Source of the DNA: Sphingomonas endolithica
Lineage (GTDB): Bacteria; Pseudomonadota; Alphaproteobacteria; Sphingomonadales; Sphingomonadaceae
NCBI RefSeq assembly: GCF_025231525.1
Contig: NZ_CP103057.1
Location: forward strand, 1,257,001-1,321,000
Direction of reading: 5' to 3'
Length of the DNA stretch: 64,000 nucleotides
Below are positions 7,054 through 57,079 of this stretch, piece by piece; position 1 is the first letter of the stretch; every line of letters starts with the position of its first letter. The translations under genes and the position numbers were made by a program. The notes beneath the pieces were generated by a model, which was not told the DNA's origin, did not search any database, and worked only from the letters and a program-made list of their open reading frames with translations.

Positions 7054-7201
7054 CCCGTTCGTCCTGAGTAGCCATCGAGTAGCCCGCAGGGCGTATCGAG
7101 AGGGCGTATCGCAGGACACGCGCCCGCGCGCTCCAAGGTGCTTCGATACGAGCCCTTGATACGCGCTTCGCGCTACTCGGTCTCCACTCAGCACGAACGG
7201 G
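7054..7201. repeat. Cloverleaf intergenic repeat, copy 1 of 3
   Basis: This 148-bp imperfect palindrome begins CCCGTTCGTCCTGAGTAG and ends CTCAGCACGAACGGG. Copies 2 and 3 are at 36968-37116 and 56932-57079 in the same orientation. Within the arms are two small hairpins, here GCCC-GCA-GGGC and GCGC-TTC-GCGC, which face each other when the long arms pair, giving a four-way junction. It lies between convergent genes (outer-membrane factor and PepSY protein), where it could also act as a bidirectional transcription stop. Confidence 0.9.
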
Positions 7202-7222
7202 TACAGGTGAAGTCGGTCAACT

Positions 7223-8701
7223 CTAGCTGGAAGGCCGGGAACCAGCGCCTGCCTCCCGGCCCTCACCCGCCTGGAACCGCCGCAACACGACCAGCGACAA
7301 CAGCGCCCCCAGCACCATCACGGCATCCAGGGCCAATATCGCCGGCGCAGCCGGCCGCAGGATGATCGCGTGGCCCAGTCCGGTTGCGATCAGGCAGGCG
7401 AGCAACACAGTGCGCAATTGCTCGGGCACGATCCACAGCGGTCGTGCAACCGCCACCGCCAAGCCGGCCGCGAGCAACCCCCAGAACGCCGCTACCAAGA
7501 ACGCATCCGGGCCAGCCACGCCGCGCAGCCATGCGGTCCAGACCAGCGCCAGCGGCGTCCCCCAGATCACCACCGCCCAGCACGCCTCCAGCCGATCGCT
7601 GCCCATGCCGCGCCGCCGCCGCTTGCCCAGCCACAAGGTCGTGCCGGTCGAGGTGATCACGCACAGCGCCAGGCCGAGCAGCAGATAGGCGATCTCGACC
7701 GGCAGCCCGCCGAAATTGCCGAAATGCAGGTTGTAGGTCGAGGCGGCGAACTGCTGGCCCCACGGCCCGTTGGTCAGACCGACCGGACCTTGCCAGCGGC
7801 CCGCCGCATCGAAGCGATAATCCTCGCCATAGACCAGCCGCCGCGGCAGTGCCGCCAGGATCTGGATATGCTGCCCGCGCGTGCCGGGATCGTGGACGAT
7901 GACATAGGTCGGCATGGCCGCCGGCACGCGCGCGTGCAGCGTCGCCAGTGCCGTGGCGATGTTCGCCAGCGGCGCAGCATTGGCGTCCGGCATGCCCTCC
8001 GGGCCATAGATCGGGGCGTAGATCTTTTCGAGATTGCCGCCGGTATAGGCCTTGGCCAACACGCTATAGCCCACGCCGCTCAGTCCGATGAACGCCCCGG
8101 TCAGCGTGACCGCGAGCGCGAAGGGCAACGTCCACACGCCGAGCCGGTTGTGCCAGTCGGCGCGCGCGATCTGCGGATCGTGCCGGGTGCGCAGCCAGAA
8201 GGCGTCGCGCAGGATGCGCGGATGCGCGAGCACGCCGGTGATGAGCAACGCGGCCAGCGCCACGCCCAGCGCGCCGACCAGCAACATCCCCCAGGTCGCC
8301 GGCAGGTGCAGATATTCGTGCAGTCCGATGACCATTTCGGTCCAGCTATGCGCCTCGCGTCCGGCCACGCGACCCTGCCCGTCGACATACCAGCCGCCAT
8401 GGTCGGTGGTCGCAACCGCACGTGGCAGGTCCGCATTCGGCATGCGGAGATAGAGGTGCGTCGTGCGCGGCTTGCCCGCGTCTTGGGCGATCGCCGCCGC
8501 TACTCCCGCCTGCGCCGCGCTGGGCGTCAGCGCGGTCACCTCAGCGATGGTCGGCTGTTCCCAGCGCTGCCAGCGATCGTGGATCACCACGACCGCGCCG
8601 GTCAGCGAGACGATGTAGAGCAACGCGCCGGCGAGCAGCCCGATCGCGGCATGGCCGCCGAGCGCACGCTGCACCAGGGTCTGGGGTTGGGGAGCGGGCA
8701 T
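7223..8701 (-). CDS. PepSY-associated transmembrane protein of an iron-type locus
   Basis: This 492-residue inner-membrane protein belongs to the PepSY_TM (PiuB-like) family, often encoded beside siderophore receptors. Visible hydrophobic segments are near residues 14-35 (AAIGLLAGALLYIVSLTG), 130-170, 195-225 and several towards the C-terminus. His-containing motifs typical of the family are WTEMVIGLHEYLHLP and ADWHNRLGVWTLPFA. Its ATG overlaps the stop of the upstream gene by one base (TGATG), so the two are translationally coupled. Family members are proposed to act in ferric-siderophore reduction or transport; the exact role here is unknown. The usual partner receptor upstream is reduced to a remnant. 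Confidence 0.85.
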   Translation of the reverse strand: MPAPQPQTLVQRALGGHAAIGLLAGALLYIVSLTGAVVVIHDRWQRWEQPTIAEVTALTPSAAQAGVAAAIAQDAGKPRTTHLYLRMPNADLPRAVATTDHGGWYVDGQGRVAGREAHSWTEMVIGLHEYLHLPATWGMLLVGALGVALAALLITGVLAHPRILRDAFWLRTRHDPQIARADWHNRLGVWTLPFALAVTLTGAFIGLSGVGYSVLAKAYTGGNLEKIYAPIYGPEGMPDANAAPLANIATALATLHARVPAAMPTYVIVHDPGTRGQHIQILAALPRRLVYGEDYRFDAAGRWQGPVGLTNGPWGQQFAASTYNLHFGNFGGLPVEIAYLLLGLALCVITSTGTTLWLGKRRRRGMGSDRLEACWAVVIWGTPLALVWTAWLRGVAGPDAFLVAAFWGLLAAGLAVAVARPLWIVPEQLRTVLLACLIATGLGHAIILRPAAPAILALDAVMVLGALLSLVVLRRFQAGEGREAGAGSRPSS

Positions 8702-9243
8702 CAGGACAGGCTCCACAGGATCGTGCCGAGAATGGCTGCGCCGGCGGGCGGCGCGATCATCCGCATCGCCGTGGCGCGCGTCATCTGCCACGCCATCAGC
8801 ACGCCCCATAGCACAGGCTGGAGGAACAGCGTCAGCGCGAGCGCATCCGCCTCGCCAGCGCCGGCCCGACGCGCCAGCGCCTGCATGCCGAAAGTGAGCC
8901 ACTGCGCCGCCACGAAGCCGATCGGGACGACGAGCACGAATACGAACAATCTCCGGGCGATGTCGGCCGGCCGATGCGGCAGCGTGATCGAGGGTATGGT
9001 ACGCGCGGGCCGGCGCACCTTGACGGGTGAGCGCCATCCGGTGTGCAGCACGAGGGCGATCGCGACGGCCATGCCGGCCACCGCACCCACCGCCACCCCC
9101 CATGCGCCATCGTTCGCCGCCAGCAGGAACAGCCCGCCGACGCCCAATGCCCAGCCGAGAGGCGCGACGCCACGGCGGCCCGACCAGCCGAGCCGCACCA
9201 ACAGCATCGCGGCCATGATCGTGACGAGCCCCAGGATGATCAC
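8701..9243 (-). CDS. Small multi-pass membrane protein of the iron-type locus
   Basis: This 180-residue protein has about five hydrophobic segments (for example residues 1-15, 28-41, 46-66, 93-112, 138-150) and no soluble domain. It sits between the receptor remnant, 20 bases upstream, and the PepSY gene, with which it overlaps by one base. Small membrane proteins of this kind commonly accompany PepSY/TonB-receptor operons in Proteobacteria. I do not recognise a named family with confidence. Function is inferred only from context (ferric-siderophore handling). Confidence 0.8.
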   Translation of the reverse strand: MIILGLVTIMAAMLLVRLGWSGRRGVAPLGWALGVGGLFLLAANDGAWGVAVGAVAGMAVAIALVLHTGWRSPVKVRRPARTIPSITLPHRPADIARRLFVFVLVVPIGFVAAQWLTFGMQALARRAGAGEADALALTLFLQPVLWGVLMAWQMTRATAMRMIAPPAGAAILGTILWSLS

Positions 9244-9263
9244 GCCAGCGCCCCCGCCGCGGA

Positions 9264-9485
9264 TCAGTACCGCACGCTGATCGTGGCGAGCGCGGTGCGC
9301 GGGGCGCCGTAATAGCCGTTGCTGCCATCGGTCTGCACGCCCGTCACGACGATATCGTCGATCGCCGGCTCTTCCCTGCCGCCTTGCGTGTCGGCGGCGC
9401 GCTGCGGATCGGTCACCGCCGGCGGTGCAGATGGTGTGGTAGAAGCCGCCGCGGCCGCAGCCAGCAACGCGATGATCGCAGTCAT
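9264..9485 (-). pseudogene. Internally deleted TonB-dependent receptor remnant (signal peptide, TonB box and last strand only)
   Basis: These 73 codons encode a signal peptide (MTAIIALLAAAAAAS), a short linker, an intact TonB box (DDIVVTG) and then, about ten residues later, YYGAPRTALATISVRY ending in a terminal aromatic residue. That ending matches the final beta-strand of siderophore-type receptors. The plug and nearly the whole 22-strand barrel, normally about 600-700 residues, are absent. The reading frame is intact across the joint and AGGGAG lies before the ATG, so a short secreted peptide could still be made, but it cannot transport anything. It heads the operon with the two downstream membrane genes. 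An assembly collapse is the main alternative to a real deletion. Confidence 0.8.
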
Positions 9486-9528
9486 GGTGAGTGTCTCCCT
9501 GAGCGGGGGCACTACTCCGTGATCAATC

Positions 9529-9547
9529 GTTATTGCAAGTCATTATC
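9529..9547 (-). promoter_or_regulatory. Fur-box-like operator upstream of the receptor remnant
   Basis: The 19-base site, read leftward GATAATGACTTGCAATAAC, matches 13-14 of 19 positions of the classical Fur consensus depending on orientation. It overlaps the stop codon of the AraC gene and ends about 44 bases before the start codon of the receptor remnant. Iron-repressed control of the leftward operon is an inference that fits the gene content. Confidence 0.5.
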
Positions 9548-10465
9548 GATAAGTCGCCTCAAGGCCTGTGGGGATGAGTCGAAGGCGCGGCGAAAGGCAT
9601 GCCCGAACGCACTTTGCGAGGTGTAGCCGATCCTGTCCGCTATGCTGGCAACCGTCCCGTCGCCGCGGGTCAGCGCTGCGCGGGCGAGCGTGAGACGCCA
9701 AGCGCGGACATAGGAGAGCGGCGGTTGCCCGACGCGACGGGTGAACTCGGCGGAAAATGCCGCGCGCGACATGCCCGCCAGGGCGGCAAGTTCTGCCACC
9801 GTCCAGGGGCGCGCGACATCGTCGTGGATCGCTCGCAGTGCCCGGCCGATACGAGCGTCGGACAGTGCGGCAAGCCACCCGATGTCAGGGGCATCGGGGC
9901 GGCCGGCATAAGCGCGGATCGCCTCCACCAGCAGCACATCGGCAAGCCTGGCCCCCACGATCTCGCTGCCCATCTTGCCGCGATCCGATTCGCCATTGAT
10001 CAGGCCGAGAATGGTCGCGACCGCCTCGGCCGATGGCGACGATCGAGGAACGATCATGAACGGCGGCAGCATGTCGAGCAGGAAGTCTGCGCTGCCGGCA
10101 CCGAACGTGACGGTGCCGCCGATCCCGATCGTGTCGTCACCCCCAATGCGCGCGACGTCACTGTCCCTATACAGCTCCTGCCCATCGATCGGGTTCTCGG
10201 CGGGGTCGCTCGCAATGGCATAAGCGGACCGGCCGAGCACGCACACATCGCCCTCGTTCATCAGATGAGGCGCGCAGCCGGGAAGCATCATCCACTGACT
10301 GCCGCGCAGCAGGGCCACGAACTTCAGCCGCTCTATCGCCGGAAAGGCAAAGGCCCAGCGCCCCGACGCCTCGATCCTGGTCCGCCGCGTGACCCGTGCG
10401 CCGAGAACGTCCAGCACGTCGGACAGTGGATCGATGGCGGTTTTGGACGATCGCGACAATTTCAT
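9530..10465 (-). CDS. AraC-family transcriptional regulator with N-terminal cupin-type domain
   Basis: The protein has 311 residues. The N-terminal about 190 residues look like the AraC-type cupin sensing domain (WMMLPGCAPHLMNEGDVCVL). The C-terminal about 100 residues hold the two helix-turn-helix units, WTVAELAALAGMSRAAFSAE and then VASIADRIGYTSQSAF with the FRRAF continuation. It is divergent from the SDR gene with 62 bases between start codons, a common regulator-target arrangement, so the SDR is the most likely target. The start was set at the Met before KLSRSSK; a longer in-frame start at 10504 exists but would overlap the divergent promoter. Confidence 0.88.
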   Translation of the reverse strand: MKLSRSSKTAIDPLSDVLDVLGARVTRRTRIEASGRWAFAFPAIERLKFVALLRGSQWMMLPGCAPHLMNEGDVCVLGRSAYAIASDPAENPIDGQELYRDSDVARIGGDDTIGIGGTVTFGAGSADFLLDMLPPFMIVPRSSPSAEAVATILGLINGESDRGKMGSEIVGARLADVLLVEAIRAYAGRPDAPDIGWLAALSDARIGRALRAIHDDVARPWTVAELAALAGMSRAAFSAEFTRRVGQPPLSYVRAWRLTLARAALTRGDGTVASIADRIGYTSQSAFGHAFRRAFDSSPQALRRLIDNDLQ

Positions 10466-10527
10466 AGACGGTGTACCATAGAGTATCTCGGTCACCCCGC
10501 CCATCTCCTGTGTCGAGGAGAATGACG

Positions 10528-11262
10528 ATGGGTATCGAAGGCAAAATTGTCGCCATCACCGGCGCAAGCAGTGGAATTGGCCGCGCGACCGCGGCGCTGC
10601 TGGCCGGACGCGGCGCGTTCGTCGTGCTGGGCGCGCGCCGCCAGGATGCGCTGGCTGAAGTGGTGGAGGCGATCACCGCTGGCGGCGGGAAGGCCGTGTC
10701 CAAGGTGACCGACGTGCGCCGGCGCGACGATCTCGAAGCGCTGGTCGCGCTCGCGGTGGAACAAGGCGGTCGGCTCGATGTCATCATCAACTGCGCCGGG
10801 ATCGGGCCGATCTCCCGTCTGGACGCACTGGACGTCGAAGGCTGGGACGCCATGATCGACGTGAACCTGCGGGGCACGCTTTACGGCATCGCCGCTGCCC
10901 TGCCCGTCTTCGCGCGCCAAGCGAGCGGACATGTGATCAACGTCATTTCGACGGCCGGCATCAAGATGGTGCCGACGATGGGAGTCTATGCCGCCACCAA
11001 GAATGCCGTTCGCACGGTGACGGAGATACTGAGGCAGGAGGCAGGACCGCACCTGCGCGTGACCGAAGTGTCCCCGGGAATGATCGCCACGAATTTCGGC
11101 GACAGCATCACCGACCAGCCGACCAAGACGATGATCGAGGGGCAGATCGGCGCGATCGCCATCCCGCCCGATGCGATTGCGCGCGGGATCCTCTATGCGA
11201 TCGAGCAGCCGCCCGAAGTGGATGTCGGCAGCATCGTGATCCGTCCGACCGCGCAAGGCTGA
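10528..11262 (+). CDS. Short-chain dehydrogenase/reductase (classical SDR)
   Basis: This 244-residue cytosolic oxidoreductase has the NAD(P)-binding GASSGIGRA motif near residue 14, a structural NCAG (near 90), catalytic Ser in NVIST and the YAATK active site (near 150). GAGGAG lies 7 bases before the chosen ATG; an ATG six bases earlier would be too close to it. The closest type, from memory, is the YdfG/serine-3-dehydrogenase-like group, but the substrate cannot be determined. The divergent AraC gene is its likely regulator. Confidence 0.9.
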   Translation: MGIEGKIVAITGASSGIGRATAALLAGRGAFVVLGARRQDALAEVVEAITAGGGKAVSKVTDVRRRDDLEALVALAVEQGGRLDVIINCAGIGPISRLDALDVEGWDAMIDVNLRGTLYGIAAALPVFARQASGHVINVISTAGIKMVPTMGVYAATKNAVRTVTEILRQEAGPHLRVTEVSPGMIATNFGDSITDQPTKTMIEGQIGAIAIPPDAIARGILYAIEQPPEVDVGSIVIRPTAQG

Positions 11263-11320
11263 ACGACGCGCTGCCGAGCAAAGCGCCGGCCGCCTGAACG
11301 TCACGGTGCGGGCGGCTGGG

Positions 11321-11393
11321 GTGGAGCGGCGCGGCGGCCCGCGTGCTGCGGCTTGCGGGAACGAAGCATACCGATCGCCCCGCCCCGCTCCAC
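11321..11393. repeat. Inverted repeat between SDR and SulP genes
   Basis: GGTGGAGCGG at 11321-11330 is perfectly complementary to CCGCTCCACC at 11384-11393, with 53 bases between them. The 284-base gap 11263-11546 has no gene. The hairpin lacks a T-run, so an intrinsic terminator is not supported. Its role is unknown; it may influence read-through from the SDR gene. Confidence 0.4.
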
Positions 11394-11546
11394 CGCAGCG
11401 TCGGTGCACTCGATCTGGCCAAGCATTGTGCTGCGCCGAGATGACAGGCGTGTAACGTTTGATTGCTGCGCTGCAATAAAGGGAACAGGTTGATCGGGCT
11501 TACGTCTAGAACGGACTGGTTCGCCGCCAATTTGGCCGCCGCTGAC

Positions 11547-13925: not shown

Positions 13926-13926
13926 A

Positions 13927-13956
13927 TTGACCCTCATTGCGGAAGATGGGACATAG
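13927..13956 (+). promoter_or_regulatory. Predicted metE promoter
   Basis: TTGACC at 13927-13932 is followed 18 bases later by ACATAG at 13951-13956. Transcription would start near 13963, at the edge of the cobalamin riboswitch. The -10 box is weak; the placement between operator and riboswitch is the main support. Confidence 0.4.
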
Positions 13957-13960
13957 CGGG

Positions 13961-14161
13961 CGTCAAGGTTCTCCGGCCGCGCAGGCGCGCCGGAGCTAAG
14001 ACGGGAAGCCGGTGCGGACCTCCTTTCAGGAACACAGGTCCAAGGCCGGCGCTGCCCCCGCAACTGTAAGCGGCGAGCGGCGGTCATCGAGTGTCACTGG
14101 CGGTGCGAACCGCTGGGAAGGCCAGACCGTCGTTATGACCCGTGAGCCAGGAGACCTGCCT
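13961..14161 (+). promoter_or_regulatory. Cobalamin (adenosylcobalamin) riboswitch
   Basis: The leader contains the conserved GAAGCCGGTGCGGAC segment, the GCTGCCCCCGCAACTGTAAG core and the closing GAGCCAGGAGACCTGCC, with the peripheral CACTGGCGGTGCGAACCGC hairpin between them. These are the hallmark blocks of the B12 riboswitch in the right order and spacing. It precedes the B12-independent methionine synthase gene, a standard target: when cobalamin is plentiful, MetE is shut down in favour of MetH. About 130 bases remain to the metE start and would hold the expression platform, probably occlusion of the translation start. Confidence 0.95.
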
Positions 14162-14292
14162 TCGACGCGATAACGTCCACCGGCGGGGATCCCGGGCTGG
14201 CCGCTTGCAGCCACGCGCGCGAGCCATGTTCCGGGCGTGCGCCCTGCCTGTGACCATCCGTCTTCTCCGCCTTTCATCGGGGTATGAAGACC

Positions 14293-21751: not shown

Positions 21752-21860
21752 GGCGGCGAACTCCTGAATATTACCGCTGCATTGCGCGGACCGCGGGGAA
21801 GATCAACCGGGTGGAGGGATTAGAAAGGCTGTCTAAGCGTTTGATTCGACCCACCCCCAC

Positions 21861-21925
21861 CGTTCGTGTCGAGCGAAGTCGAGACACCACCCGCAGGTTT
21901 CTCGACTTCACTAGACACGAACGGT
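21861..21925. repeat. GTGTCGAGC-type palindrome, full copy
   Basis: CCGTTCGTGTCGAGCGAAGT opens the element and its near-complement ending GACACGAACGG closes it. Related copies are at 36738-36807 (full) and 6973-7000 (half). It shares its outer ends with the 148-bp cloverleaf repeats. It lies between two leftward genes, so it would be transcribed in the leader of the CocE-type gene if both are co-transcribed. Confidence 0.85.
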
Positions 21926-34731: not shown

Positions 34732-36675
34732 ATGCGCCACCTGCTCGCCGCCACTGCCCTGCTCGCGCTTTCTCCTGCCCTGGCGGCCCAGGCGCAGGAA
34801 CCTGCCAAGGTGGAGGTGCGCACCATCGGCGCGGCGACGCTGGAGAATGTGCCGCCGATCGCACCCGAACTCGCCACCGCCGTCGCGCGCTATCAGCAGA
34901 GCCGGTCGGCCAGCGTCGCCGATTGGCTGCCCGATGGCAGTCTGCTGATCGCGACGCGCTTCGGCACGACGGTGCAGCTGCACCGCGTGAAGGCGCCCGG
35001 CATGGCGCGCACGCAGATCACCTTTGCCGCGGAGCCGATCGCCGGTGGCCGGGCGATCCCGCAATCCGACCGGATCGTGTTCAGCCGCGATACCGGCGGC
35101 GACGAATGGTTCCAGATCTACACGATGGGGCCGGACGGCAACCCGGTGCAGCTGACCGAGCCGGGCACGCGCAACGATGGCGTGGCGCTGGCCAAGGATG
35201 GCCGCCGCCTGTTCTGGTCGCAGGCGATCAAGGGATCGGGCGATCGCAACATCCTGGCCGCCGACCCCGCCGATCCGGCAAGCCGCACGCTCGTCTACAA
35301 GGCGACCGGCGCGATGACGCCGAGCGACGTCTCCGACGACGGCAAGACCTTGCTCATGACGCTCGGCGTCTCCAACCGCGAGGACCGGCTGTTCACGCTC
35401 GATCTGGCCAGCGGCGTTGCGACCGAGATCGTCAAGGGAACGCCTGCCAACCTGTCCGGCGCCAAGTTCATCCGCGGCGGCCGCACGCTGCTGGCGATCA
35501 GCAATCGCGGCAGCGACGTGCAGCGGCTGGTGGAGATTGATGTCGCCACCGGCAAGATGACGCCGATCGCACCGGGCCTCAACTGGGATGTCGAGGATTT
35601 CGACCTCAGCGATAACGGCCGCGTGCTCGCCTATGTCATCAACGAGGATGGCTATTCGAAGGTCGTGGTGCGCGATTTCGTCACCCGCCGGGCGCTGCCG
35701 CAGCCGGACTTCATCAAGGGCGTGGTCAGTGGCCTGCGCCTGTCGCCCGATGGCCGCAAGCTGGCGGTGAGCATCGCCTCGGCCGCCGGGCCGGGCGACG
35801 TCTATGGCTGGGATGTCGACGGCGGCACGCTCTCGCGCTGGACCGAATCCGAGATCGGGCCGATCGATCGCGCGAGCCTGCCCGAGCCGAAGCTTGTCCG
35901 CTTCACCAGCTTCGACAAATTGTCCGTGCCGGCCTTCGTCTATCGCCCGAAGAACGCGGCGCCCGGCGCCAAGACGCCGGTACTGATCTCGATCCATGGC
36001 GGCCCCGAGGGCCAGGCGCGGCCGGGCTGGTCGCCGACCATCGCCAGCTTCGTCGATACGCTGGGCGCCACCGTGATCGTGCCCAACGTGCGCGGATCGG
36101 ATGGTTACGGCACCAAATATCTCAACCTGGACAATGCCGAGAAGCGCGAGGATTCGGTCAAGGACATCGGCGCATTGCTCGACTGGATCGCGACCCAGCC
36201 CGATCTGGATGCCAGCCGCATCGCGGTGATCGGCGGCTCCTATGGCGGCTACATGTCGCTGGCGACGATGACCAAATATAGCGACAAACTGGCCGGCGGC
36301 GTCGACCTGTTCGGTATCGGCGACTGGGTGACGTTCCTGGAGAACACCGAGGCGTACCGCCGCGACAATCGCCGCGCCGAATATGGCGACGAGCGCACGC
36401 CGAAGATGAAGGCGGTGTTCGCCCGGATCTCGCCCCGCGCCAACGTCGCCGGGATCACCAAGCCGATGCTGATCGAACAAGGCGTCAACGATCCACGCGT
36501 GCCGATGCGCGAGAGCAAGCAGATGGTGGACGCGCTCCGCGCGCGCGGCGTGCCGGTGTCGTACCTGCTGTTCGCCGACGAAGGGCATGGCTGGCGCAAA
36601 AAGCCGAACCAGGATCTTAGCCTGCGGGTCGAGATGGCGTTCCTGCGGGGCGTGCTGGGGACGGCGGGGAAGTAG
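34732..36675 (+). CDS. Secreted S9-family (prolyl oligopeptidase / acylaminoacyl-peptidase type) serine peptidase
   Basis: The 647-residue enzyme has a signal peptide (MRHLLAATALLALSPALAAQA), an N-terminal beta-propeller region (about 45-380) and a C-terminal alpha/beta-hydrolase domain. The catalytic Ser is in GGSYGGYMS (about residue 505), the Asp in GVNDPRVP and the His in DEGHGW. GGAGATCC lies before the chosen Met; upstream in-frame sequence runs into the preceding terminator. It probably cleaves short peptides in the periplasm, feeding uptake together with the neighbouring receptor (inference). Confidence 0.93.
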   Translation: MRHLLAATALLALSPALAAQAQEPAKVEVRTIGAATLENVPPIAPELATAVARYQQSRSASVADWLPDGSLLIATRFGTTVQLHRVKAPGMARTQITFAAEPIAGGRAIPQSDRIVFSRDTGGDEWFQIYTMGPDGNPVQLTEPGTRNDGVALAKDGRRLFWSQAIKGSGDRNILAADPADPASRTLVYKATGAMTPSDVSDDGKTLLMTLGVSNREDRLFTLDLASGVATEIVKGTPANLSGAKFIRGGRTLLAISNRGSDVQRLVEIDVATGKMTPIAPGLNWDVEDFDLSDNGRVLAYVINEDGYSKVVVRDFVTRRALPQPDFIKGVVSGLRLSPDGRKLAVSIASAAGPGDVYGWDVDGGTLSRWTESEIGPIDRASLPEPKLVRFTSFDKLSVPAFVYRPKNAAPGAKTPVLISIHGGPEGQARPGWSPTIASFVDTLGATVIVPNVRGSDGYGTKYLNLDNAEKREDSVKDIGALLDWIATQPDLDASRIAVIGGSYGGYMSLATMTKYSDKLAGGVDLFGIGDWVTFLENTEAYRRDNRRAEYGDERTPKMKAVFARISPRANVAGITKPMLIEQGVNDPRVPMRESKQMVDALRARGVPVSYLLFADEGHGWRKKPNQDLSLRVEMAFLRGVLGTAGK

Positions 36676-36737
36676 CGGGCGACGGTCCGCCAACCGTTGC
36701 TGAGCGATCGCCGCCCACCACGATGACTTACCCTAAC

Positions 36738-36807
36738 CCGTTCGTGTCGAGCGAAGTCGAGACACCTGCGCTTGGGATAGTGTCTCGACGACGCTCGACA
36801 CGAACGG
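36738..36807. repeat. GTGTCGAGC-type palindrome, full copy
   Basis: The element opens CCGTTCGTGTCGAGCGAAGT and closes with GACGCTCGACACGAACGG. It is the first of three different palindromes packed into the gene-free gap 36676-37125. Confidence 0.85.
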
Positions 36808-36848
36808 TTTGATGCAGAGCGATCGAGGCCTGGACGCAACCAACCGTT

Positions 36849-36916
36849 CCGTTCGTGCTGAGCTTGTCGAAGCACGTGCCCGGCAACACGCCCTTCGACA
36901 AGCTCAGGGCGAACGG
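36849..36916. repeat. GTGCTGAGC-type palindrome, copy 1
   Basis: The arms are CGTTCGTGCTGAGCTTGTCG and CGACAAGCTCAGGGCGAACG. A second copy is at 56209-56276. The outer ends are shared with the other palindrome families in this window. Confidence 0.85.
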
Positions 36917-36967
36917 CGGAGGTCCAATCGAGCTTCCGCTTCAGAGTTGATGGCCCAAGCCCCACCC

Positions 36968-37116
36968 CCCGTTCGTCCTGAGTAGCCATCGAGTAGCCCG
37001 CAGGGCGTATCGAGAGGGCGTATCGAAGGACACGCGCCCGCGCGCCCCAGAGGTGCTTCGATACGAGCCCTCGATACGGCCTACGGCCTACTCGGTCCCT
37101 ACTCAGCACGAACGGG
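36968..37116. repeat. Cloverleaf intergenic repeat, copy 2 of 3
   Basis: This 149-base copy carries the side hairpins GCCC-GCA-GGGC and GGCC-TAC-GGCC. The second differs from copy 1 (GCGC-TTC-GCGC) at four stem positions while keeping all four base pairs. It ends 9 bases before the stop codon of the leftward SDR gene and follows the rightward S9 peptidase gene, again a convergent gap. Confidence 0.9.
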
Positions 37117-37125
37117 GAAAGGAGC

Positions 37126-38118
37126 TCAAGGCTGCCCGTTACCCCCCATCGCGCCATACACCTGGCCCGTGGCATAGCTCCCACTCTCCTCCGCCAGCAG
37201 CACATAGATGCCCGCCAGTTCTGCCGGCTGCCCCGGCCGCATGAGCGGGGTGTCGCCGCCGAACTGCGCCAGTTTCTCCATCGTCGCGCCGCCCGATACC
37301 TGCAGCGGGGTCCAGATCGGGCCCGGCGCCACGCCGTTGACGCGGATGCCCTTGGGCGCGAGCTGCTTGGCCAGGCTGCGCACGTAATTGGTCGTCGCCG
37401 CCTTCGTCTGCGCGTAATCGTACAGGTCCTCGGACGGGTCCATCGCCTGCTCGCTGGTCGTACCGATGATCGACGATCCGGGCTTCAGGTGCGGCAGTGC
37501 CGCCTTGATCGTCCAGAACGGCGCATAGATGTTGGTCTTCATCGTCCAGTCGAACTGGTCGCTGGAGATATCCAGGATCGAGGCATGCGTCTGCTGCCGC
37601 GCGGCATTGTTGACCAGGATGTCGAGCCCGCCCAGCGCCTTCACCGCCTTGGCGACCATCTTCTTGCAGAACGCCTCGTCGCGCAGGTCGCCCGGGATCG
37701 CGTACCCCTTGCGCCCGGCCTGTTCGATCAGCGCGATCACCTCGCGCGCATCGGCTTCCTCGTCGGGCAGATAGTTGATCGCGACATCCGCGCCTTCGCG
37801 CGCATAGGCGATCGCCGCCGCACGCCCCATGCCCGAATCGCCACCGGTGATCAGCGCCTTGCGGCCGGCCAACCGACCCGATCCCTTGTAGCTCTGCTCG
37901 CCATGGTCCGGCCGCGGGTCCATCTGGCCGGCCAGCCCCGGCCAGGGCTGCGACTGCTTCTTGAACGGCGGGCGGGGATATTTGGTGCGCGGGTCCTGGA
38001 TCGGGGCGGCGCCCGCCGCGCCTTGCGCTGCGCCCTGTGACGGGAGGGCGGAGGCCACGCCCGCGATCGCGGCACCGCTCACTATTTGGCGCCTGGAGAC
38101 GCCGTCTTTCTTTGCCAT
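37126..38118 (-). CDS. SDR oxidoreductase with a Tat-like N-terminal signal
   Basis: The 330-residue protein begins MAKKDGVSRRQIVSGAAIAG, a twin-arginine signal-like segment, followed by a Pro-rich linker (PRTKYPRPPFKKQSQPWPG) seen in general-stress SDRs of the YdaD/YhdF type. The NAD(P)-binding motif is TGGDSGMGRA (about residue 91), with NNAA and the catalytic YAQTK near residue 238. NAD(P) enzymes with Tat signals are unusual because the cofactor must be exported bound. The substrate is unknown; relatives act on alcohols or sugars in stress responses. Confidence 0.88.
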   Translation of the reverse strand: MAKKDGVSRRQIVSGAAIAGVASALPSQGAAQGAAGAAPIQDPRTKYPRPPFKKQSQPWPGLAGQMDPRPDHGEQSYKGSGRLAGRKALITGGDSGMGRAAAIAYAREGADVAINYLPDEEADAREVIALIEQAGRKGYAIPGDLRDEAFCKKMVAKAVKALGGLDILVNNAARQQTHASILDISSDQFDWTMKTNIYAPFWTIKAALPHLKPGSSIIGTTSEQAMDPSEDLYDYAQTKAATTNYVRSLAKQLAPKGIRVNGVAPGPIWTPLQVSGGATMEKLAQFGGDTPLMRPGQPAELAGIYVLLAEESGSYATGQVYGAMGGNGQP

Positions 38119-43462: not shown

Positions 43463-43662
43463 CCGTACGCCGACCCAGCGGGTGTGATGTCCCTCCGCCA
43501 GAGAAGCCGAAGCCGGCTCAAGGCAAGAACCCCGCCCCAACCACGCCGTCACCCGGACCCGTTCCGGGGTCCCCCGCTCCGCAAACATGCCAGTTGGTGA
43601 TTTGCGGCACCGTGGACCGCGCAACAAGCCGGCGATTGTACCGCTCGGACATGTACCACCAC

Positions 43663-43756
43663 GTCATCCCCGCGCAGGCGGGGATCCATAACCTCTGACG
43701 TCAGTACTTCAGCCGCCAAGCAAGCCGGTATGGATCCCCGCCTGCGCGGGGATGAC
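43663..43756. repeat. REP-like palindrome (GTCATCCCCGCGCAGG family), copy 2
   Basis: GTCATCCCCGCGCAGGCGGG and CCCCGCCTGCGCGGGGATGA form the arms. The outer arms are almost identical to the copy at 5372-5465, with an unrelated centre. It lies downstream of the leftward lepA gene in a gap between convergent genes. Confidence 0.88.
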
Positions 43757-43855
43757 GAACGATGCTCGAAAGGGATAGCCGCGAACACGTCCGCGGCGAC
43801 GATTAGCGACCGTCAGTCCCGAGACCAAGCCGGGCTCAGCTTCCGACGCTCGGCC

Positions 43856-50564: not shown

Positions 50565-50636
50565 GCCACCCGGGCGGAGCCGTCATCGTCTGACGCGGCT
50601 TCCCTCCGGGTGATCGGGCGAGCATAGCGCGGCGCG

Positions 50637-51809
50637 ATGTTGCGTACCGACACTTCCACCGATGCACCGCTGGCGCTGTACGTGCACTGGCCGTTCTGCG
50701 TCTCCAAATGCCCGTATTGTGACTTCAACAGCCATGTTCGCGAATCGGTCGATCAGGAAGCATGGCGCGCGGCGCTGCTGACCGATCTGGCACATGAAGC
50801 GGCGCTGCTGCCCGGCCGGACGCTGGGATCGATCTTCTTCGGGGGCGGCACGCCGTCGCTGATGCCGCCGGCAACGACCGCGGCGATCATCGACGCGGCG
50901 TCGCGCGCATGGCGCTTCGCCGACGATATCGAGATCACGCTGGAAGCCAATCCCTCCTCGGTGGAGGCAGCGCGGTTCACCGACATCGCGGCGGCTGGTG
51001 TCAACCGGGTGTCGCTCGGGCTGCAGGCGCTGGATGACCAGGCGCTCGGCTTTCTCGGACGGGCACATGATGTCGGCGAGGGGCTGGCGGCGCTGGCCAC
51101 CGCCCAGGCGGCGTTCGCGCGCGTGAGCTTCGACCTGATCTATGCGCGACCTGGACAGACGCTTGCGGCGTGGGAGGCGGAACTCGCGCGAGCGATCGGC
51201 TTCGGCACCGAACATCTGTCGTTGTACCAGTTGACGATCGAGCCCGGCACGCGCTTTGCGACCGAGGCCGCCGCTGGCCGCATCGTCATTCCGGATGGCG
51301 ACAGTGCGGCAGATCTGTTCGAGATGACGCGCGCGATCACCGCCGCGGCCGGGCTGCCTGCCTACGAGATTTCCAACCATGCGCGTGCCGGTTCGGAAAG
51401 CCGTCATAACCTCGTTTACTGGCGCTATCAGGATTATGCCGGGATCGGCCCCGGCGCGCACGGGCGGCGGGGCGGGCTTGCCACCGTGCGGCGCAAGAAG
51501 CCGGAAAACTGGCTGGCCGCGGTGGCGCGCAACCAGCACGGCATGGAGTTGGAGGAACCACTCGCGCCGGCGACGCGCGCGACCGAGGCATTGCTGATGG
51601 GGCTGAGGCTGCGCGAGGGCGTCGATCTGGCGCGGATCGCGCAGCTGGGGGCGACGACGATCCCGCAATTGATCGACTTGCCGGCATTGGAGAAGCTCGC
51701 CGCGCAGGGATTGGCGCGGCGCGACGGTGATCGCCTGCTGGTCACCGAGGCGGGAATGCTGCTGCTCGATGCGATCCTGCCGATCGTGGTGAAGATCGAC
51801 TCGGAGTGA
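50637..51809 (+). CDS. hemW: Heme chaperone HemW (radical SAM)
   Basis: The 390-residue protein has the radical-SAM cluster with the CVSKCPYCDF spacing (CxxxCxxC, about residue 21-28) characteristic of HemN/HemW, FFGGGTPSLM and SLGLQALDDQAL. It lacks the N-terminal extension of HemN, so HemW is the better call. It is involved in heme delivery to respiratory proteins. In many alphaproteobacteria it follows rdgB; here the preceding gene is fpr instead. Confidence 0.94.
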   Translation: MLRTDTSTDAPLALYVHWPFCVSKCPYCDFNSHVRESVDQEAWRAALLTDLAHEAALLPGRTLGSIFFGGGTPSLMPPATTAAIIDAASRAWRFADDIEITLEANPSSVEAARFTDIAAAGVNRVSLGLQALDDQALGFLGRAHDVGEGLAALATAQAAFARVSFDLIYARPGQTLAAWEAELARAIGFGTEHLSLYQLTIEPGTRFATEAAAGRIVIPDGDSAADLFEMTRAITAAAGLPAYEISNHARAGSESRHNLVYWRYQDYAGIGPGAHGRRGGLATVRRKKPENWLAAVARNQHGMELEEPLAPATRATEALLMGLRLREGVDLARIAQLGATTIPQLIDLPALEKLAAQGLARRDGDRLLVTEAGMLLLDAILPIVVKIDSE

Positions 51810-51874
51810 CTTGATTGGTGTGATCGCACGCGAGGCCGCTACGTAACTACCCGTCACCCAGGGCTTGTTCCGGT

Positions 51875-51925
51875 GTGACGTTGACGGGATGGCTCCCCGC
51901 TTTCGCGGGGGACCAGCAACGTCAC
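51875..51925. terminator. Nested hairpin between convergent hemW and LpoA-like genes
   Basis: GTGACGTTG and CAACGTCAC form outer arms, and CCCCGC-TTTC-GCGGGG forms an inner hairpin. The right end overlaps the last codons of the leftward lipoprotein gene. No T-run is present; a bidirectional stop is inferred from position only. Confidence 0.35.
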
Positions 51926-53142
51926 TTGCCGGCGAAGCCCGTCGGCGCGGGCGATACGACCACCGTCGTGCCGCCGCGGATCTCCTGCACCTCGAGCGCG
52001 CGTTCGGCGATGTTGTCGCGGCCGAAGCGGAACGCGCCGTCGATGCCACCGAAGCCGCCGCGATCGTGCAGCCGGCTTTCGGGGAATGGCGTGCCGATGG
52101 TCCAGTCGCGCGCGATGCGGACAGTCAGCAGCACCGCGTCATAGCCGAGACTCGACAGGCGGAACGGCGCCGCGCCGAAGCGGGCACGGTATTTGGCGGC
52201 ATATTGGCGGTAGAGCGCGTCCGGCACGCTGGCGAACCAGGCACCGTTCAGCGCCGGCTTGGCCGCTGCCGAGGCATCGGAATTCCACAATTCGGTGCCG
52301 AGCACCCGCGCGCTCGCACCATTGCCGCGCCGCAGCAGCGACACGGTGGAGGCCGCACTGCTCGCGCCGTCGGCGATCAGGACCGCCTGATAGGGCGAAT
52401 TCTTCGACATCCGCGTCACCGCAGCGGTGATCGAGCCCGGTGCTCGATCATAGGTCTGCAGCGTCACGACCTGGCCCCCCGCGCTTTCCACCGCGCGCAG
52501 GAACGAGGTCGAAGCCCGCTCGCCGTACAGACCGTTCGGCACCAGACCGGCGAAGCTCTCGACCCCCTGCCCGCGCGCATAATCGACCACGCGGCCGATC
52601 GACTGGCCGGGCACATAGCCCATCAGATAGGCGCCGTTGCCAGCAGCACTGGCATCGTTGGAGAAGCTGACCACCGGCACGCCCGCACGCTTGGCGATCG
52701 GCGTGATGATGCGGACGTCTTCGGCCAGCAATGGCCCGAGTATCAGCCGGTTGCCCTCGGCGATGGCGCGCTGCACGGCGCCCGCAGCACCCAAGGCCGC
52801 CGTATCATAGGTGGTGATGCGGAGCTGCTCGCTGCGCGCGTCCAGCAAGGCAAGCTGGGTAGCGTTGGCGAGGCTCTGGCCGACCCCGGCGTTCGATCCG
52901 GTCAGCGGCACCAGCAGCGCGACACGGTGACGCGCGGTATCGGCGGGGATGCCCTGCTCGACCTCCACCGGGCGTGCCGCCTGCGGGCGGGTCGCCTGGG
53001 GCCGATCGACCTGGACCGGTCCGCGCGGTACCACCGTCTGGCAGGCGCCGAGCAGCAAGGCCGCGCCAAGCGCGAGCGCGCGGGAAAGTGATGCGCCCGT
53101 CCACGCTATCCGCCGTTGCGGTATCGATACACCGTCTGCCAT
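51922..53142 (-). CDS. LpoA/LppC-like periplasmic-binding lipoprotein
   Basis: The 406-residue lipoprotein has a lipobox (LLLGAC, Cys near residue 34) after a longer-than-usual n-region, a Pro/Arg-rich linker, then a type-1 periplasmic-binding fold (VALLVPLTGSNAGVGQSLAN; VPVVSFSNDASAAGNGAYLM). This is the C-terminal domain type of LpoA, which activates the penicillin-binding protein PBP1A in gammaproteobacteria. The N-terminal TPR domain of LpoA is absent. It starts 11 bases from the divergent rsmI, a conserved arrangement. Confidence 0.85.
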   Translation of the reverse strand: MADGVSIPQRRIAWTGASLSRALALGAALLLGACQTVVPRGPVQVDRPQATRPQAARPVEVEQGIPADTARHRVALLVPLTGSNAGVGQSLANATQLALLDARSEQLRITTYDTAALGAAGAVQRAIAEGNRLILGPLLAEDVRIITPIAKRAGVPVVSFSNDASAAGNGAYLMGYVPGQSIGRVVDYARGQGVESFAGLVPNGLYGERASTSFLRAVESAGGQVVTLQTYDRAPGSITAAVTRMSKNSPYQAVLIADGASSAASTVSLLRRGNGASARVLGTELWNSDASAAAKPALNGAWFASVPDALYRQYAAKYRARFGAAPFRLSSLGYDAVLLTVRIARDWTIGTPFPESRLHDRGGFGGIDGAFRFGRDNIAERALEVQEIRGGTTVVVSPAPTGFAGK

Positions 53143-53153
53143 GACTGTCCCCT

Positions 53154-53987
53154 ATGAACCCTGATCTTATGCCCGGCCTCTATATCGTTGCCACGCCAAT
53201 CGGCAATCTCGGCGATCTCTCGCCCCGCGCCGCGGCGGTGCTGGCCGGTGCCGCGGTAATCGCGGTGGAGGACAGCCGGGTAACGGCGAAACTGCTGCGC
53301 CATATCGGCGTGAAGCGGCCGATGATGCCGTATCACGACCATAATGCCGAAGGGGTCAGGCCTGGCTTAGTCGCGCGGATGGGCACGGAGGCGGTCGCAT
53401 TGGTATCCGATGCGGGCACGCCGCTGATCTCCGACCCCGGCTATAAGCTGGTGCGCGACGCGCGCGCGGCTGGGCATAATGTCGTGACGATCCCCGGCCC
53501 TTGCGCGGCGGTTGCAGCACTTACCCTGGCGGGCTTGCCGACCGATCGGTTCCTGTACCTGGGGTTCCTGCCGCCCAAGGCGCAGGCGCGCGCGACCGCC
53601 ATCGCCGAAGTCGCCGCGATCCGCGCGACATTGGTGCTGTACGAATCGGGGCCGCGCCTCGGCGTGACCCTGGCTGCACTCGCCGAGGGATTGGGCGAGC
53701 GTGAGGCGGCCGTGACGCGCGAGATCACCAAGCGGTTCGAGGAAGCGGTCACCGGCACGCTAGGCGAACTCGCCGCGCGCTATGCCGAAGCACCGCCCAA
53801 GGGCGAGATCGTCGTCGTCATCGCGCCGCCGGGCGAGGCAGCGCCGGCCAGCGCGGACGATGCGGAGTTGGCCCTGACCGAGGCGCTGTCCCGCCTGCCG
53901 ATGGCAAAGGCGGTGAGCGAAGTGGCCAAGAAGCTGGGGGTGGATCGCAAGGCCTTGTACGCTCGCGCCCTGGCGATGAAGGAGTGA
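53154..53987 (+). CDS. rsmI: 16S rRNA (cytidine-1402-2'-O)-methyltransferase
   Basis: RsmI methylates C1402 in the ribosomal decoding centre. The 277-residue protein has the family motifs IVATPIGNLGDLSPRA (about residue 10), AVEDSRVTAKLL and VSDAGTPLISDPGYKLV (about 85). It ends with a C-terminal Lys-rich helical domain. The alternative Met at codon 6 is possible. Start codons of this gene and the divergent lipoprotein are only 11 bases apart, so promoters must lie within coding sequence. Confidence 0.96.
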   Translation: MNPDLMPGLYIVATPIGNLGDLSPRAAAVLAGAAVIAVEDSRVTAKLLRHIGVKRPMMPYHDHNAEGVRPGLVARMGTEAVALVSDAGTPLISDPGYKLVRDARAAGHNVVTIPGPCAAVAALTLAGLPTDRFLYLGFLPPKAQARATAIAEVAAIRATLVLYESGPRLGVTLAALAEGLGEREAAVTREITKRFEEAVTGTLGELAARYAEAPPKGEIVVVIAPPGEAAPASADDAELALTEALSRLPMAKAVSEVAKKLGVDRKALYARALAMKE

Positions 53988-54075
53988 GCTGCGGATCGGC
54001 GACTGCGATGGATTGAGCCGCTCTACTCGAACTGCGATTGGACTCCACAGGCGGCCGCGTGTCGTTGATCGATAC

Positions 54076-54107
54076 GAAAAGGGGACCGAGCCGAAGCCCG
54101 ATCCCCT
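54076..54107 (-). terminator. Rho-independent terminator of the Gly/Thr-rich gene
   Basis: Read leftward, AGGGGA-T-CGGGC-TTCG-GCTCG-G-TCCCCT forms a stem with a stable TTCG tetraloop followed by TTTTC. It lies 23 bases after the stop at 54130. It may also slow transcription from rsmI. Confidence 0.65.
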
Positions 54108-54129
54108 CATCACCTTAGCGCAAGAGCGC

Positions 54130-54579
54130 TCATTGCGGCGGCGTGGTGCCCGTCGTGCCGGTGCCGCCAGTAGTGCCGGTGCCACCCATCGTGCCGGTGC
54201 CACCCATCGTACCCGTGCCGCCCATCGTGCCGGTACCGCCCATCGTGCCCGAGCCGCTGGTCGAGCCAGGGCCGGTTGAGCCGCTCAACGTGCCGGAGGT
54301 GCTGCCCGTCGTGCCGCCCGACGTAGAAGTGCCCGACGACGACGTACCGGACTGGGTCGAACGGCGGCTGCGCTGGCTCGTGCGGTTGGTACGCTTCGAG
54401 GTGCTGGATGCCGATGGCGTCTGTGTGCTCTGCGATGCCTGGCTACCGGTCGAACCCGATGTACCCGCCGTCGTCGTGGAACCGCTCTGACCGGAGCCGC
54501 TGGTCGACGTGGCCGACTGAGCCATCAGTGCGGCAGGAAGAAGCACCGCAGTGGCGGCGGCGATTAGCTTGAGTCGCAT
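54130..54579 (-). CDS. Secreted Gly/Ser/Thr-rich low-complexity protein with GTMGGT tandem repeats
   Basis: The 149-residue protein has a signal peptide (MRLKLIAAATAVLLPAALMA) and then only Ser, Thr, Gly, Gln and a few Arg. The C-terminal third consists of about six hexapeptide units of the form GTMGGT / GTTGGT, encoded by an 18-base tandem DNA repeat (about 54150-54250). A short basic patch (SKRTNRTSQRSRRS) sits in the middle. No domain is recognised; an extracellular or surface-disordered role is likely. It is inserted, on the opposite strand, between rsmI and yraN. Confidence 0.75.
   Translation of the reverse strand: MRLKLIAAATAVLLPAALMAQSATSTSGSGQSGSTTTAGTSGSTGSQASQSTQTPSASSTSKRTNRTSQRSRRSTQSGTSSSGTSTSGGTTGSTSGTLSGSTGPGSTSGSGTMGGTGTMGGTGTMGGTGTMGGTGTTGGTGTTGTTPPQ
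54148..54260. repeat. 18-base in-gene tandem repeat
   Basis: The unit GTGCCGGTGCCACCCATC recurs about five to six times with single-base changes (ACCCGTGCCGCCCATC, CCGGTACCGCCCATC). Each unit encodes one hexapeptide of the secreted low-complexity protein. In-frame copy-number changes would be tolerated. Confidence 0.8.
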
Positions 54580-54738
54580 GATGTTTTCCTTTTCGAGACT
54601 AGTGCGCCAACAACCCCCAAGCGCTTGGGGTTGTTCCTCTTTTTGTGTCTGATGCAGATCAGCCAAGGGGTTGGCGGTCATCCGACGATTGCACGAATTA
54701 AGGGTGTGCGAGCGCTCCAAAGCCGATATTTCGGGGCG

Positions 54739-55131
54739 GTGCCCGACCGCCCTGCCCCCAAGCGCCCACCCGGCGCCACGCGCGACCGGCGCATCGCCGA
54801 AGCATCGGGCCGGCGCGGCGAGCGACTTGCCGGCTGGTGGTTGCGGCTCAAGGGGTGGCGCATCCTCGACCGCCGCGTGCGTACGCCTGCCGGCGAAGTG
54901 GATCTGGTCGCGCGCAAGGGTAATCTGGTTGCTTTTGTCGAGGTGAAGCTGCGCAAAACCACGGCCGAACTCGATTTCGCGATCGACGAACGCCGGCTGG
55001 CGCGCGTCGCCGCTGCGGCCGAAGTGCTGATGCCGCGATATGCCCGGCCGGGCGACGACATCCGCGTCGATGTCATCCTGATCGCGCCGGGCGCGCGGCC
55101 GCGCCATATCGAGAATGCTTGGATCGGCTGA
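54739..55131 (+). CDS. yraN: YraN/UPF0102 family endonuclease-like protein
   Basis: The roughly 130-residue protein carries the nuclease-superfamily core GEVDLVARKGNLVAFVEVK (about residues 53-71), with the Asp and the Glu-x-Lys of the PD-(D/E)XK-like active site, preceded by RGERLAGWWLRLKGWRILDR. A GTG at 54739 after GGGGC is preferred; an in-frame ATG at 54625 or 54652 would add a poorly conserved extension. It sits between rsmI and gshB, as in many Proteobacteria. Its biological role is uncertain. Confidence 0.88.
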   Translation: MPDRPAPKRPPGATRDRRIAEASGRRGERLAGWWLRLKGWRILDRRVRTPAGEVDLVARKGNLVAFVEVKLRKTTAELDFAIDERRLARVAAAAEVLMPRYARPGDDIRVDVILIAPGARPRHIENAWIG

Positions 55132-55214
55132 GCGGATCGGATGACAATGGCTTGCTCCCCCCCTACATCGCCGCGATACACCGTCGCCCCAGACGGGCAG
55201 ATGGAAAGAACAAC

Positions 55215-56171
55215 ATGTCGCTCACCGTCGCTGTCCAGATGGACCCAATCGAGTCGATCAACATTGCGGGCGATTCGACCTTCGCGTTGATGCTGTCGGC
55301 GCAGGCGCGCGGTCACCGGCTGTTCCACTATGCCGCCGAAGACCTGAACTATGCCGACGGACGCGTGTGGGCCCGGGCGCATCCGGTGACGGTGCGGCCC
55401 GTCGTCGGCGATCATTTCAGCTTCGATGAGCCCGTCAGCCTCGACCTGGGCGATGCGGCGGACGTGGTGCTGATGCGGCAGGATCCGCCGTTCGATCTCG
55501 GCTACATCACGGCCACACATCTGCTAGAGCGGATCGCGCACAAGACGCTGGTGGTGAACGATCCCGCCAGCGTGCGCAACGCGCCGGAAAAGGTGTTCGT
55601 GCTCGATTACCCGCAGTTCATGCCGCCGACGCTCGTCACGCGCAGCCTGGACGAAGCGCGCGCCTTCCTGGCCAGGCACGGCGAGATCGTCGTCAAGCCG
55701 CTGCACGGCAATGGCGGCAAGGCGATCTTCAAGGTCGGCAGTGATGGCGCGAACCTGTCGGCATTGATCGAAGTGTTCAACATGACGTGGCGCGAGCCGC
55801 ACATGATCCAGGCGTTCCTGCCGGACGTGGTTAAGGGCGACAAGCGCATCGTGCTGGTGGACGGCGAGATCGCCGGCGCGATCAACCGCTTGCCCGGCGA
55901 AGGCGAGATCCGCTCCAACCTGGCGGTCGGCGGTTCGGCGGTGAAGACCGACTTGACCGAGACCGAGCAGGAAATCTGCCGCGTGCTCGGGCCCGAGCTG
56001 AAGCGTCGCGGGCTGCTGTTCGTCGGGATCGACGTGATCGGCGGTAAGTGGCTGACCGAGATCAACGTGACCTCCCCGACCGGGATCGTCGCGATCGATC
56101 GCTTCAACGGCACCGACACCGGCGCGCTGATCTGGGCGGCGATCGAGGCGAAGGTGGCGGCTAGGGGCTAA
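55215..56171 (+). CDS. gshB: Glutathione synthetase
   Basis: GshB adds glycine to gamma-glutamylcysteine, the last step of glutathione synthesis. The 318-residue ATP-grasp protein opens VAVQMDPIESINIAGDSTFA, with QDPPFDLGYI (about 90), VVKPLHGNGGKAIF (about 155) and TEINVTSPTGI (about 280). Length and motifs match the bacterial enzyme. It is 84 bases after yraN and probably co-transcribed. Confidence 0.97.
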   Translation: MSLTVAVQMDPIESINIAGDSTFALMLSAQARGHRLFHYAAEDLNYADGRVWARAHPVTVRPVVGDHFSFDEPVSLDLGDAADVVLMRQDPPFDLGYITATHLLERIAHKTLVVNDPASVRNAPEKVFVLDYPQFMPPTLVTRSLDEARAFLARHGEIVVKPLHGNGGKAIFKVGSDGANLSALIEVFNMTWREPHMIQAFLPDVVKGDKRIVLVDGEIAGAINRLPGEGEIRSNLAVGGSAVKTDLTETEQEICRVLGPELKRRGLLFVGIDVIGGKWLTEINVTSPTGIVAIDRFNGTDTGALIWAAIEAKVAARG

Positions 56172-56208
56172 GCTCCCGAAGCGTTGCGGGGGGACCTTTC
56201 CACCACGT

Positions 56209-56276
56209 CCGTTCGTCCTGAGCCTGTCGAAGGCCACGCCGCGGGGCATGTGCTTCGACAGGCTCAGCACGAACGG
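56209..56276. repeat. GTGCTGAGC-type palindrome, copy 2
   Basis: CCGTTCGTCCTGAGCCTGTC and its near-complement ending GACAGGCTCAGCACGAACGG form the arms. It lies between gshB and dedA, two genes in the same direction, and belongs with the copy at 36849-36916. Confidence 0.85.
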
Positions 56277-56298
56277 CCCTAGGAAGATCAGTCCCCAT

Positions 56299-56898
56299 AT
56301 GACCGAAATCATCATCGATCTGATCGCCTGGGGCGGGTATCTGGGCATCTTCCTGCTAATGGCGGCGGAGAACGTGTTCCCGCCGATCCCGTCCGAAGTG
56401 ATCATGGGCCTGGGCGGCATGGCGGTGGCGCGCGGGCAGATGGAGCTTGTGCCGCTGATCCTGTGGGGGACGGTCGGCACCGTCGTCGGCAATTATTTCT
56501 GGTACGAGATCGGCCGGCGGCTGGGGTATCAACGCCTCAAGCCGTTCGTCGACCGCCACGGCCGATGGCTGACGATGGACTGGGAAGAGGTCGAGAAGCT
56601 GCACCGTTTCTTCCAGCGGCACGGCCAATGGGTGGTGTTCGTGCTGCGCTTCATGCCGGCCGGGCGCACGATCATCTCGCTACCGGCGGGCATGACGCGC
56701 ATGCCGCATTGGCGCTTCATCCTGGCGACCACCGCGGGCAGCGCGATCTGGAACTGCATCCTGGCGGGCGCCGGGCTGTACCTCGGCGCCAACTTCAAGG
56801 AGCTCGACCATTATGTCGGGCCGCTGGCCGTCGCCACGATGGTGGCGATGGCCCTTTTCTATCTGTACCGCGTCGCGACCTGGAAACCGCGCGGTTAG
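56299..56898 (+). CDS. DedA-family (VTT-domain) membrane protein
   Basis: The 199-residue inner-membrane protein has four or more hydrophobic segments and DedA motifs: ENVFPPIPSEVIMGLGG (about residues 23-39), GNYFWYEIGRRLG and the Arg motif RFMPAGRTIISLPAGMTRM (about 117-135). DedA proteins act in envelope homeostasis and lipid-carrier or phospholipid translocation. The start at MTEIIIDLIAWGG was chosen; upstream in-frame sequence is repeat. Confidence 0.93.
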   Translation: MTEIIIDLIAWGGYLGIFLLMAAENVFPPIPSEVIMGLGGMAVARGQMELVPLILWGTVGTVVGNYFWYEIGRRLGYQRLKPFVDRHGRWLTMDWEEVEKLHRFFQRHGQWVVFVLRFMPAGRTIISLPAGMTRMPHWRFILATTAGSAIWNCILAGAGLYLGANFKELDHYVGPLAVATMVAMALFYLYRVATWKPRG

Positions 56899-56931
56899 AG
56901 CGCGGTGACTTTAGATGGCCTCGCACCCTAC

Positions 56932-57079
56932 CCCGTTCGTCCTGAGTAGCCATCGAGTAGCGCGCAGCGCGTATCGAGAGGGCGTATCGAAGGACAGGCG
57001 GCACGCGCTCCAACGGTGCTTCGATACGAGCCCTCGATACGGCCTATGGCCTACTCGGTCTCTACTCAGCACGAACGGG
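56932..57079. repeat. Cloverleaf intergenic repeat, copy 3 of 3
   Basis: This 148-base copy has side hairpins GCGC-GCA-GCGC and GGCC-TAT-GGCC. The first differs from copies 1 and 2 (GCCC-GCA-GGGC) by a C-to-G change compensated by a G-to-C change on the paired base. It fills most of the gap between convergent dedA and xerC. Confidence 0.9.

Follow-up and report, generated by a model that had tools for sequence, protein, structure and literature searches.

CGTC-type repetitive extragenic palindromic (REP) sequences, as described by Di Nocera et al. 2013 (PMC3733652), occur mostly in Alphaproteobacteria and mostly as inverted dimers without a dedicated transposase; they sit downstream of genes, between convergent or unidirectional open reading frames (ORFs), unlike units predominate in the dimers of families 2 and 3, and some REP dimers lie inside larger palindromes. 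REP doublets forming hairpins (REPINs) are presented by Bertels and Rainey 2011 (PMC3116915) as extragenic inverted doublets that may form a long hairpin and in which compensatory changes are common. The window analysed here, a stretch of 64,000 bases (1257001–1321000) of the one-contig 4.09 Mb genome of Sphingomonas endolithica (the own genome in what follows), contains three copies of a palindromic element that resembles both groups. With slightly better than even confidence, the element is read as a REPIN-like inverted pair of nested stem-loops that stands near the transposase-less CGTC REPs, is spread by some agent and is kept at gene 3′ ends.

The three copies, as delimited by BLAST and by their ends, span 7054–7201, 36968–37116 and 56932–57079 on the plus strand (148, 149 and 148 bp) and share a common orientation, copy 1 having a C-arm on the left and a G-arm on the right. 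They lie in convergent gaps at 6909–7222, 36676–37125 and 56899–57099; gene orientation here and below comes from our own gene caller and not from an annotation. An initial annotation of this DNA, made from its letters alone, had given the same positions, convergent neighbours and variant stems of the small hairpins, all of which are borne out.

Copies in the genome are far beyond chance. The arm core GTATCGAnnnnnnGTATCGAAG has 82 matches with at most two mismatches, compared with one for a reversed control. BLAST of the own genome gives 47 places, some of which are a single place matched on both strands (40 of 91 candidates scored). The 82 arm matches, grouped by eye, form 48 places; at 42 of these both inverted ends are present, the criterion by which a long element of 114–185 bp was delimited, and six were left undelimited. 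One 199-bp candidate, a short repeat fused to a long one, was excluded. The 14 copies of the 142–147 class have a mean identity of 88.5% (maximum 96.6%) and the 15 of the 183–185 class one of 91.9% (maximum 99.5%), the last figure suggesting that some copying or conversion is recent. No long-element place falls within a 777-kb span (G000:C1:1447365–2224426), and an equal gap among the 48 places arises in 0.3% of random placings.

Each arm has a nested organization that, from the outer end inward, comprises an outer stem GTsCT/AGsAC, the motif GAGTAG/CGTATCGA, a middle stem, GAGTAG/CGTATCGA again and an apical hairpin. The two-motif pattern fits 56 of the 84 own arms (44 distinct), and the middle stem usually holds an A.G mismatch (36 of 44 own arms and 54 of 77 from other genomes). 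ViennaRNA mostly shows GAGTAG/CGTATCGA as G-C and A-T pairs flanking a GTA/GTA loop; tandem G.A pairing, known for its stability, is a possible alternative. Elements end in CCGTTCG/CGAACGG, and GTAG occurs repeatedly in the interior. Of the 42 long copies, 40 combine a C-arm with a G-arm and none has two arms of the same type, so that a long perfect palindrome is avoided; the longest perfect run across arms is 6–12 bases, with a median of 8.

The initial annotation folded the copies into a single four-way junction, or cloverleaf, by pairing one arm with the other, and this does not hold. Of 80 own arms, 66 have their apical stem letters fully paired inside the arm (shuffled mean 22.8, maximum 38 in 5000; four of the 84 arms, without a hairpin match, were left out), and none of 76 comparisons across arms shows full pairing. 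At the variable outer-stem position s, 78 of 84 arms have a local pair and none of the 42 elements has one between its arms, indicating that what is conserved is a stem-loop in each arm. In the window the predicted left-arm stem-loops are at 7056–7117 (–25.7 kcal/mol), 36970–37031 and 56934–56995 on the plus strand, and the right-arm stem-loops at 7138–7199 (–19.5 kcal/mol on the minus strand and –16.5 on the plus strand), 37053–37114 and 57016–57077 on the minus strand.

The same annotation held that compensatory stem changes point to selection, or a process acting on single strands, as what preserves the fold; covariation is indeed strong, but for two arm hairpins. Among 28 distinct arms taken from other genomes, pairing holds in 97.2% of cells, the covariation score reaches 0.506, compared with 0.184 (sd 0.018) in shuffles and at most 0.135 in slid controls, and changes on both sides occur in 67 cells against a shuffled mean of 20.9. 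RNAalifold, with only the alignment as input, recovers the same helices. Apical stems are fully paired in 236 of 274 distinct arms (shuffled mean 51.5, maximum 72) and in 119 of 149 distinct apical hairpins (mean 23.8, maximum 37), in shuffles that ignore kinship. The arm structure of this nested repeat family is well supported.

Its bias towards gene ends is also well supported. The 42 long copies occupy 28 convergent, 13 tandem and one divergent gap, whereas convergent gaps make up 49 of the 402 without an element (Fisher 4e-14), or 36 of 231 when restricted to gaps of at least 60 bp (p 5e-11); 70 of these 231 are divergent (p 3e-5). The element-free gaps come from the stretches picked around elements, from three control stretches and from the window. 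Genome-wide copies show both covariation and a bias to convergent gaps, the two properties whose joint lack the initial annotation had named as telling against its proposal. At least one gene 3′ end adjoins 41 of the 42 copies, and in 30 of these 41 it is no more than 64 bp away. Genes ending within 60 bp of a copy have TAG stops in 16 of 39 cases, compared with 87 of 442 (p 0.004). Tandem-gap copies are entered by the G-arm in 9 of 13 cases, too few for a verdict.

Arms are modular in build. Short relatives have a single stem closed by GAG..TCGA with a small loop, and in the 148-bp elements the nested stack stands where the small loop would be. One arm of each of the 18 elements of 169–185 bp has an extra hairpin, and a hairpin of the short type is nested within an arm in six of the eight elements of 114–135 bp. 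The end pattern CCGTTCGTnnTGA occurs at 125 sites (four for the reversed control), and at least 26 candidate short relatives of 65–90 bp have the ends CCGTTCGT and ACGAACGG, an undercount drawn from 100 of the 125 CCGTTCGT places. Four candidates with these ends, given without strand, are in the window: 21860–21924 (65 bp, GTCGAG type, genome position 1278860), 36738–36807 (70 bp, 1293738) and 36849–36916 (68 bp, CTGAGC type, 1293849), both in the gap of copy 2, and 56209–56276 (68 bp, CTGAGC type, 1313209). Around the cores, TGATGACTT lies within 45 bp of the long copies on 35 of their 84 outer sides (two mismatches; reversed control 1), on both sides in 11 of 42, and at 5 of 52 sides of short relatives. 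By eye the outer consensus is CTAGAG..TGATGACTT beyond each end, its TAG being the stop codon of some genes. This outer palindrome also exists without a long core (e.g. 1337529, 2239821–2239878 and 2708838) and at one site houses a short relative instead (3552230), and so the long and short cores seem to lie inside an older palindrome of ~58 bp.

Compared with the published description of CGTC REPs (PMC3733652), the family shares inverted dimers, no associated transposase (Y1 enzymes only were sought), gene-end sites and an outer palindrome around some copies; unlike them it has no terminal unpaired CGTC, no 8–9 bp stem starting with AT and no CCA tail, and its arms are ~60 nt long and nested. 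Three inverted pairs in the window themselves resemble CGTC-type REP dimers by that description, those of CGTCATCCCCGCGCAGGCGGGGATCCATA at 5370–5466 and 43661–43757 and CCCGTCATCCTGACG..CAGGATCCAG at 2028–2115. With the GTAG REPs described in the same source the family has in common a GTAG beside the apical hairpin, gene-end sites and TAG stops enriched nearby, and differs in that its GTAG is internal and repeated, that it has no terminal unpaired tag and that no link to a REP-associated tyrosine transposase (RAYT) is seen. As in REPINs, at least as characterised in PMC3116915, an extragenic inverted two-unit element, here with unlike C and G units, could form a long hairpin and shows compensatory changes; unlike REPINs, pairing of the variable stems is local to the single arm and does not span the doublet, the arms are nested, and no resident RAYT gene was found in the own genome. 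Open-access full-text literature yielded no description of the nested-arm family by sequence string or topic, such repeats often being given in figures, outside the text. In an Rfam scan of the window only a cobalamin riboswitch (13950–14177, plus strand, 106 bits) reached its gathering score; a MIR8788 match (33 bits, gathering score 124), absent from a larger search table, was judged a chance match to the palindrome.

Across 295 genomes of the genus, 92 have a match to the element. Two candidates were scored per genome with a 149-bp probe, so that the genomes counted as lacking the element are those without a good match to the probe, and those counted as having it include partial matches (45 bases in G009). 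Scanning named genomes for the motif gave at least 120 stretches; among the 80 loci listed, 73 are named Sphingomonas and the other seven uncultured, Sphingomonadales or Proteobacteria bacterium. By rpoC, the nearest relative is G108 (94%), which is not among the 92 genomes, and G181 (90%) carries copies that are 91–92% identical; in G108 the gene neighbouring the copy 2 site is not the same, which precludes an empty-site comparison. One similarity search left out self-hits and hits shorter than 200 bp. Same-orientation copies or arms stand close together in other genomes (L192 1502–1838, G010:C1:264144–264896 and L337 573–753).

The flank of one copy identifies an ortholog site, to which the own-genome copy at 982189 belongs, between a conserved gene and an opposite-strand tRNA-Asp gene. 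The best-scoring 30 loci, from 30 genomes, were taken; all 30 contain the tRNA-Asp gene and 22 the element. By eye, element-free sites contain another palindromic pair (G018, G204 and G307), a CGTC-like pair (G101, G108 and G181) or no clear pair (G063 and G121). In some species an arm lacks part of the stack (G024, G203 and G173). On a flank tree with 9 of 27 inner branches well supported, the minimum number of changes is six for presence, eight for the right apical stem and ten for the left. The stem states CTCC/GGAG and CTTC/GAAG alternate as compensated pairs, and G216 (CTCC/GAAG) and G285 (CTCT/GGAG) look like half-way states. Entire apical hairpins with their loops turn up again on separate branches, suggesting that conversion between copies is possible.

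Read inward, the stems contain 155 G.T and 67 A.C oppositions (the middle mismatch excluded), or 76 and 49 when identical stems are collapsed (p 0.02). The inward, or entry, strand folds better than its complement in all three right arms of the window copies. Both observations favour the strand entered by a converging transcript, and a single-stranded DNA step fits equally. In the mechanism that we propose, each arm would act on the strand that a transcript enters first, such that both converging transcripts would end in a folded arm that may block or protect their 3′ ends; this 3′-end role of the arms is inferred from their fold and position. Copies would spread rarely via single-stranded DNA, by an enzyme that may have been lost, be supplied in trans or be of another kind.

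Several observations weigh against the REPIN-like reading. Pairs changed on both sides number 8 against 6.1, a value matched in 39 of 500 shuffles, and the parsing pattern fixes one of the 14 scored pairs, the basal G-C of the apical stem. That pattern also contains the GAGTAG/CGTATCGA letters (with up to 5 or 6 substitutions), which makes the near-invariance of both motifs partly a matter of construction. Because the C- and G-arm classes form two lineages, some of the covariation in the outer and middle stems is one old event counted repeatedly, and template switching or gene conversion could maintain stem complementarity without selection. For the entire single strand, one long hairpin is the more stable predicted fold (–86 to –96 kcal/mol). 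The modest G.T excess comes from the apical stem (32 to 14 when collapsed), with none in the outer (30 to 24) or middle stems (14 to 11), and two 183–185 copies are nearly identical although no mobilising enzyme was found.

The best-surviving alternative is that the elements are neutral or selfish palindromes that gather at gene 3′ ends only through the purging of insertions elsewhere and whose stems are kept complementary by replication template switching and gene conversion, a possible though somewhat doubtful account. The scarcity of divergent positions (1 of 42) is the outcome expected from purging at promoters, and the recurrence of whole hairpins at the ortholog site, the 99.5% identity of two copies and the restriction of matches to 92 of the 295 genomes all fit. 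Palindrome repair would not, however, be expected to leave the GAGTAG/CGTATCGA letters near-constant while the stems vary (a result that the arm pattern favoured); the excess of G.T over A.C on one strand also tells against this account.

More tentatively, and with distinctly low confidence, the element may be a strand-specific RNA module in which GAGUAG/CGUAUCGA forms an internal loop recognised by a protein or RNase, twice per arm and with one arm per strand. The palindrome would then provide a defined and protected 3′ end for each of the two converging mRNAs, and the gene-end slot would be selected for such a structure, with unrelated REP families replacing each other there.

Mobilisation as REPINs by a RAYT, which the initial annotation proposed together with a co-distributed RAYT/Y1 transposase gene, is unlikely. 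Inverted dimers, a GTAG immediately 5′ of the apical hairpin, the lack of a target duplication and the tandem copies of some genomes are in its favour. However, PF01797 and NF047646 have no match in the complete own genome, with an E. coli control positive for both. PF01797 occurs in 33 of the 295 genomes, comprising 9 of the 92 with the element and 24 of the 203 without it (9 against 10.3 expected; Fisher p 0.69), and no CGTTCG..GAG repeat of the element type is present in 19 loci around Y1 hits; this search covered Y1 transposases only. A tyrosine recombinase nearest to XerC, scoring under the XerC model cut-off, is encoded at 57100–57918 (minus strand) and ends ~21 bp from copy 3, and an 18-bp tandem repeat at 54149–54274 overlaps called ORFs.

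A bidirectional intrinsic terminator, also suggested at the outset, is very improbable: strong hairpins do lie near both stops of convergent genes, but the T run that should follow a GC-rich stem is mostly lacking, no terminator-like site was found in 36600–37300 around copy 2, and at least five T in eight bases, starting no more than two bases outside the end, occur at 4 of 84 outer sides and are lacking at the other 80. A miniature inverted-repeat transposable element (MITE) moved by a DDE transposase is no more credible, since against the terminal inverted repeat CCGTTCGT/ACGAACGG and the many CCGTTCGTnnTGA sites stands the finding that target duplications of 2–9 bp at nine end offsets of the 42 elements show no excess over shuffled flanks, at core ends only, the ends of the outer palindrome not included.

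If the reading as REPIN-like inverted pairs of nested stem-loops is correct, REPIN-like repeats would be able to form and hold large populations in genomes that have no resident RAYT, and their compensatory changes would concern the single arm and not the whole hairpin. With many variants and an ortholog site in 30 genomes, whether REP-type repeats are parasites or 3′-end RNA elements becomes a directly testable question.

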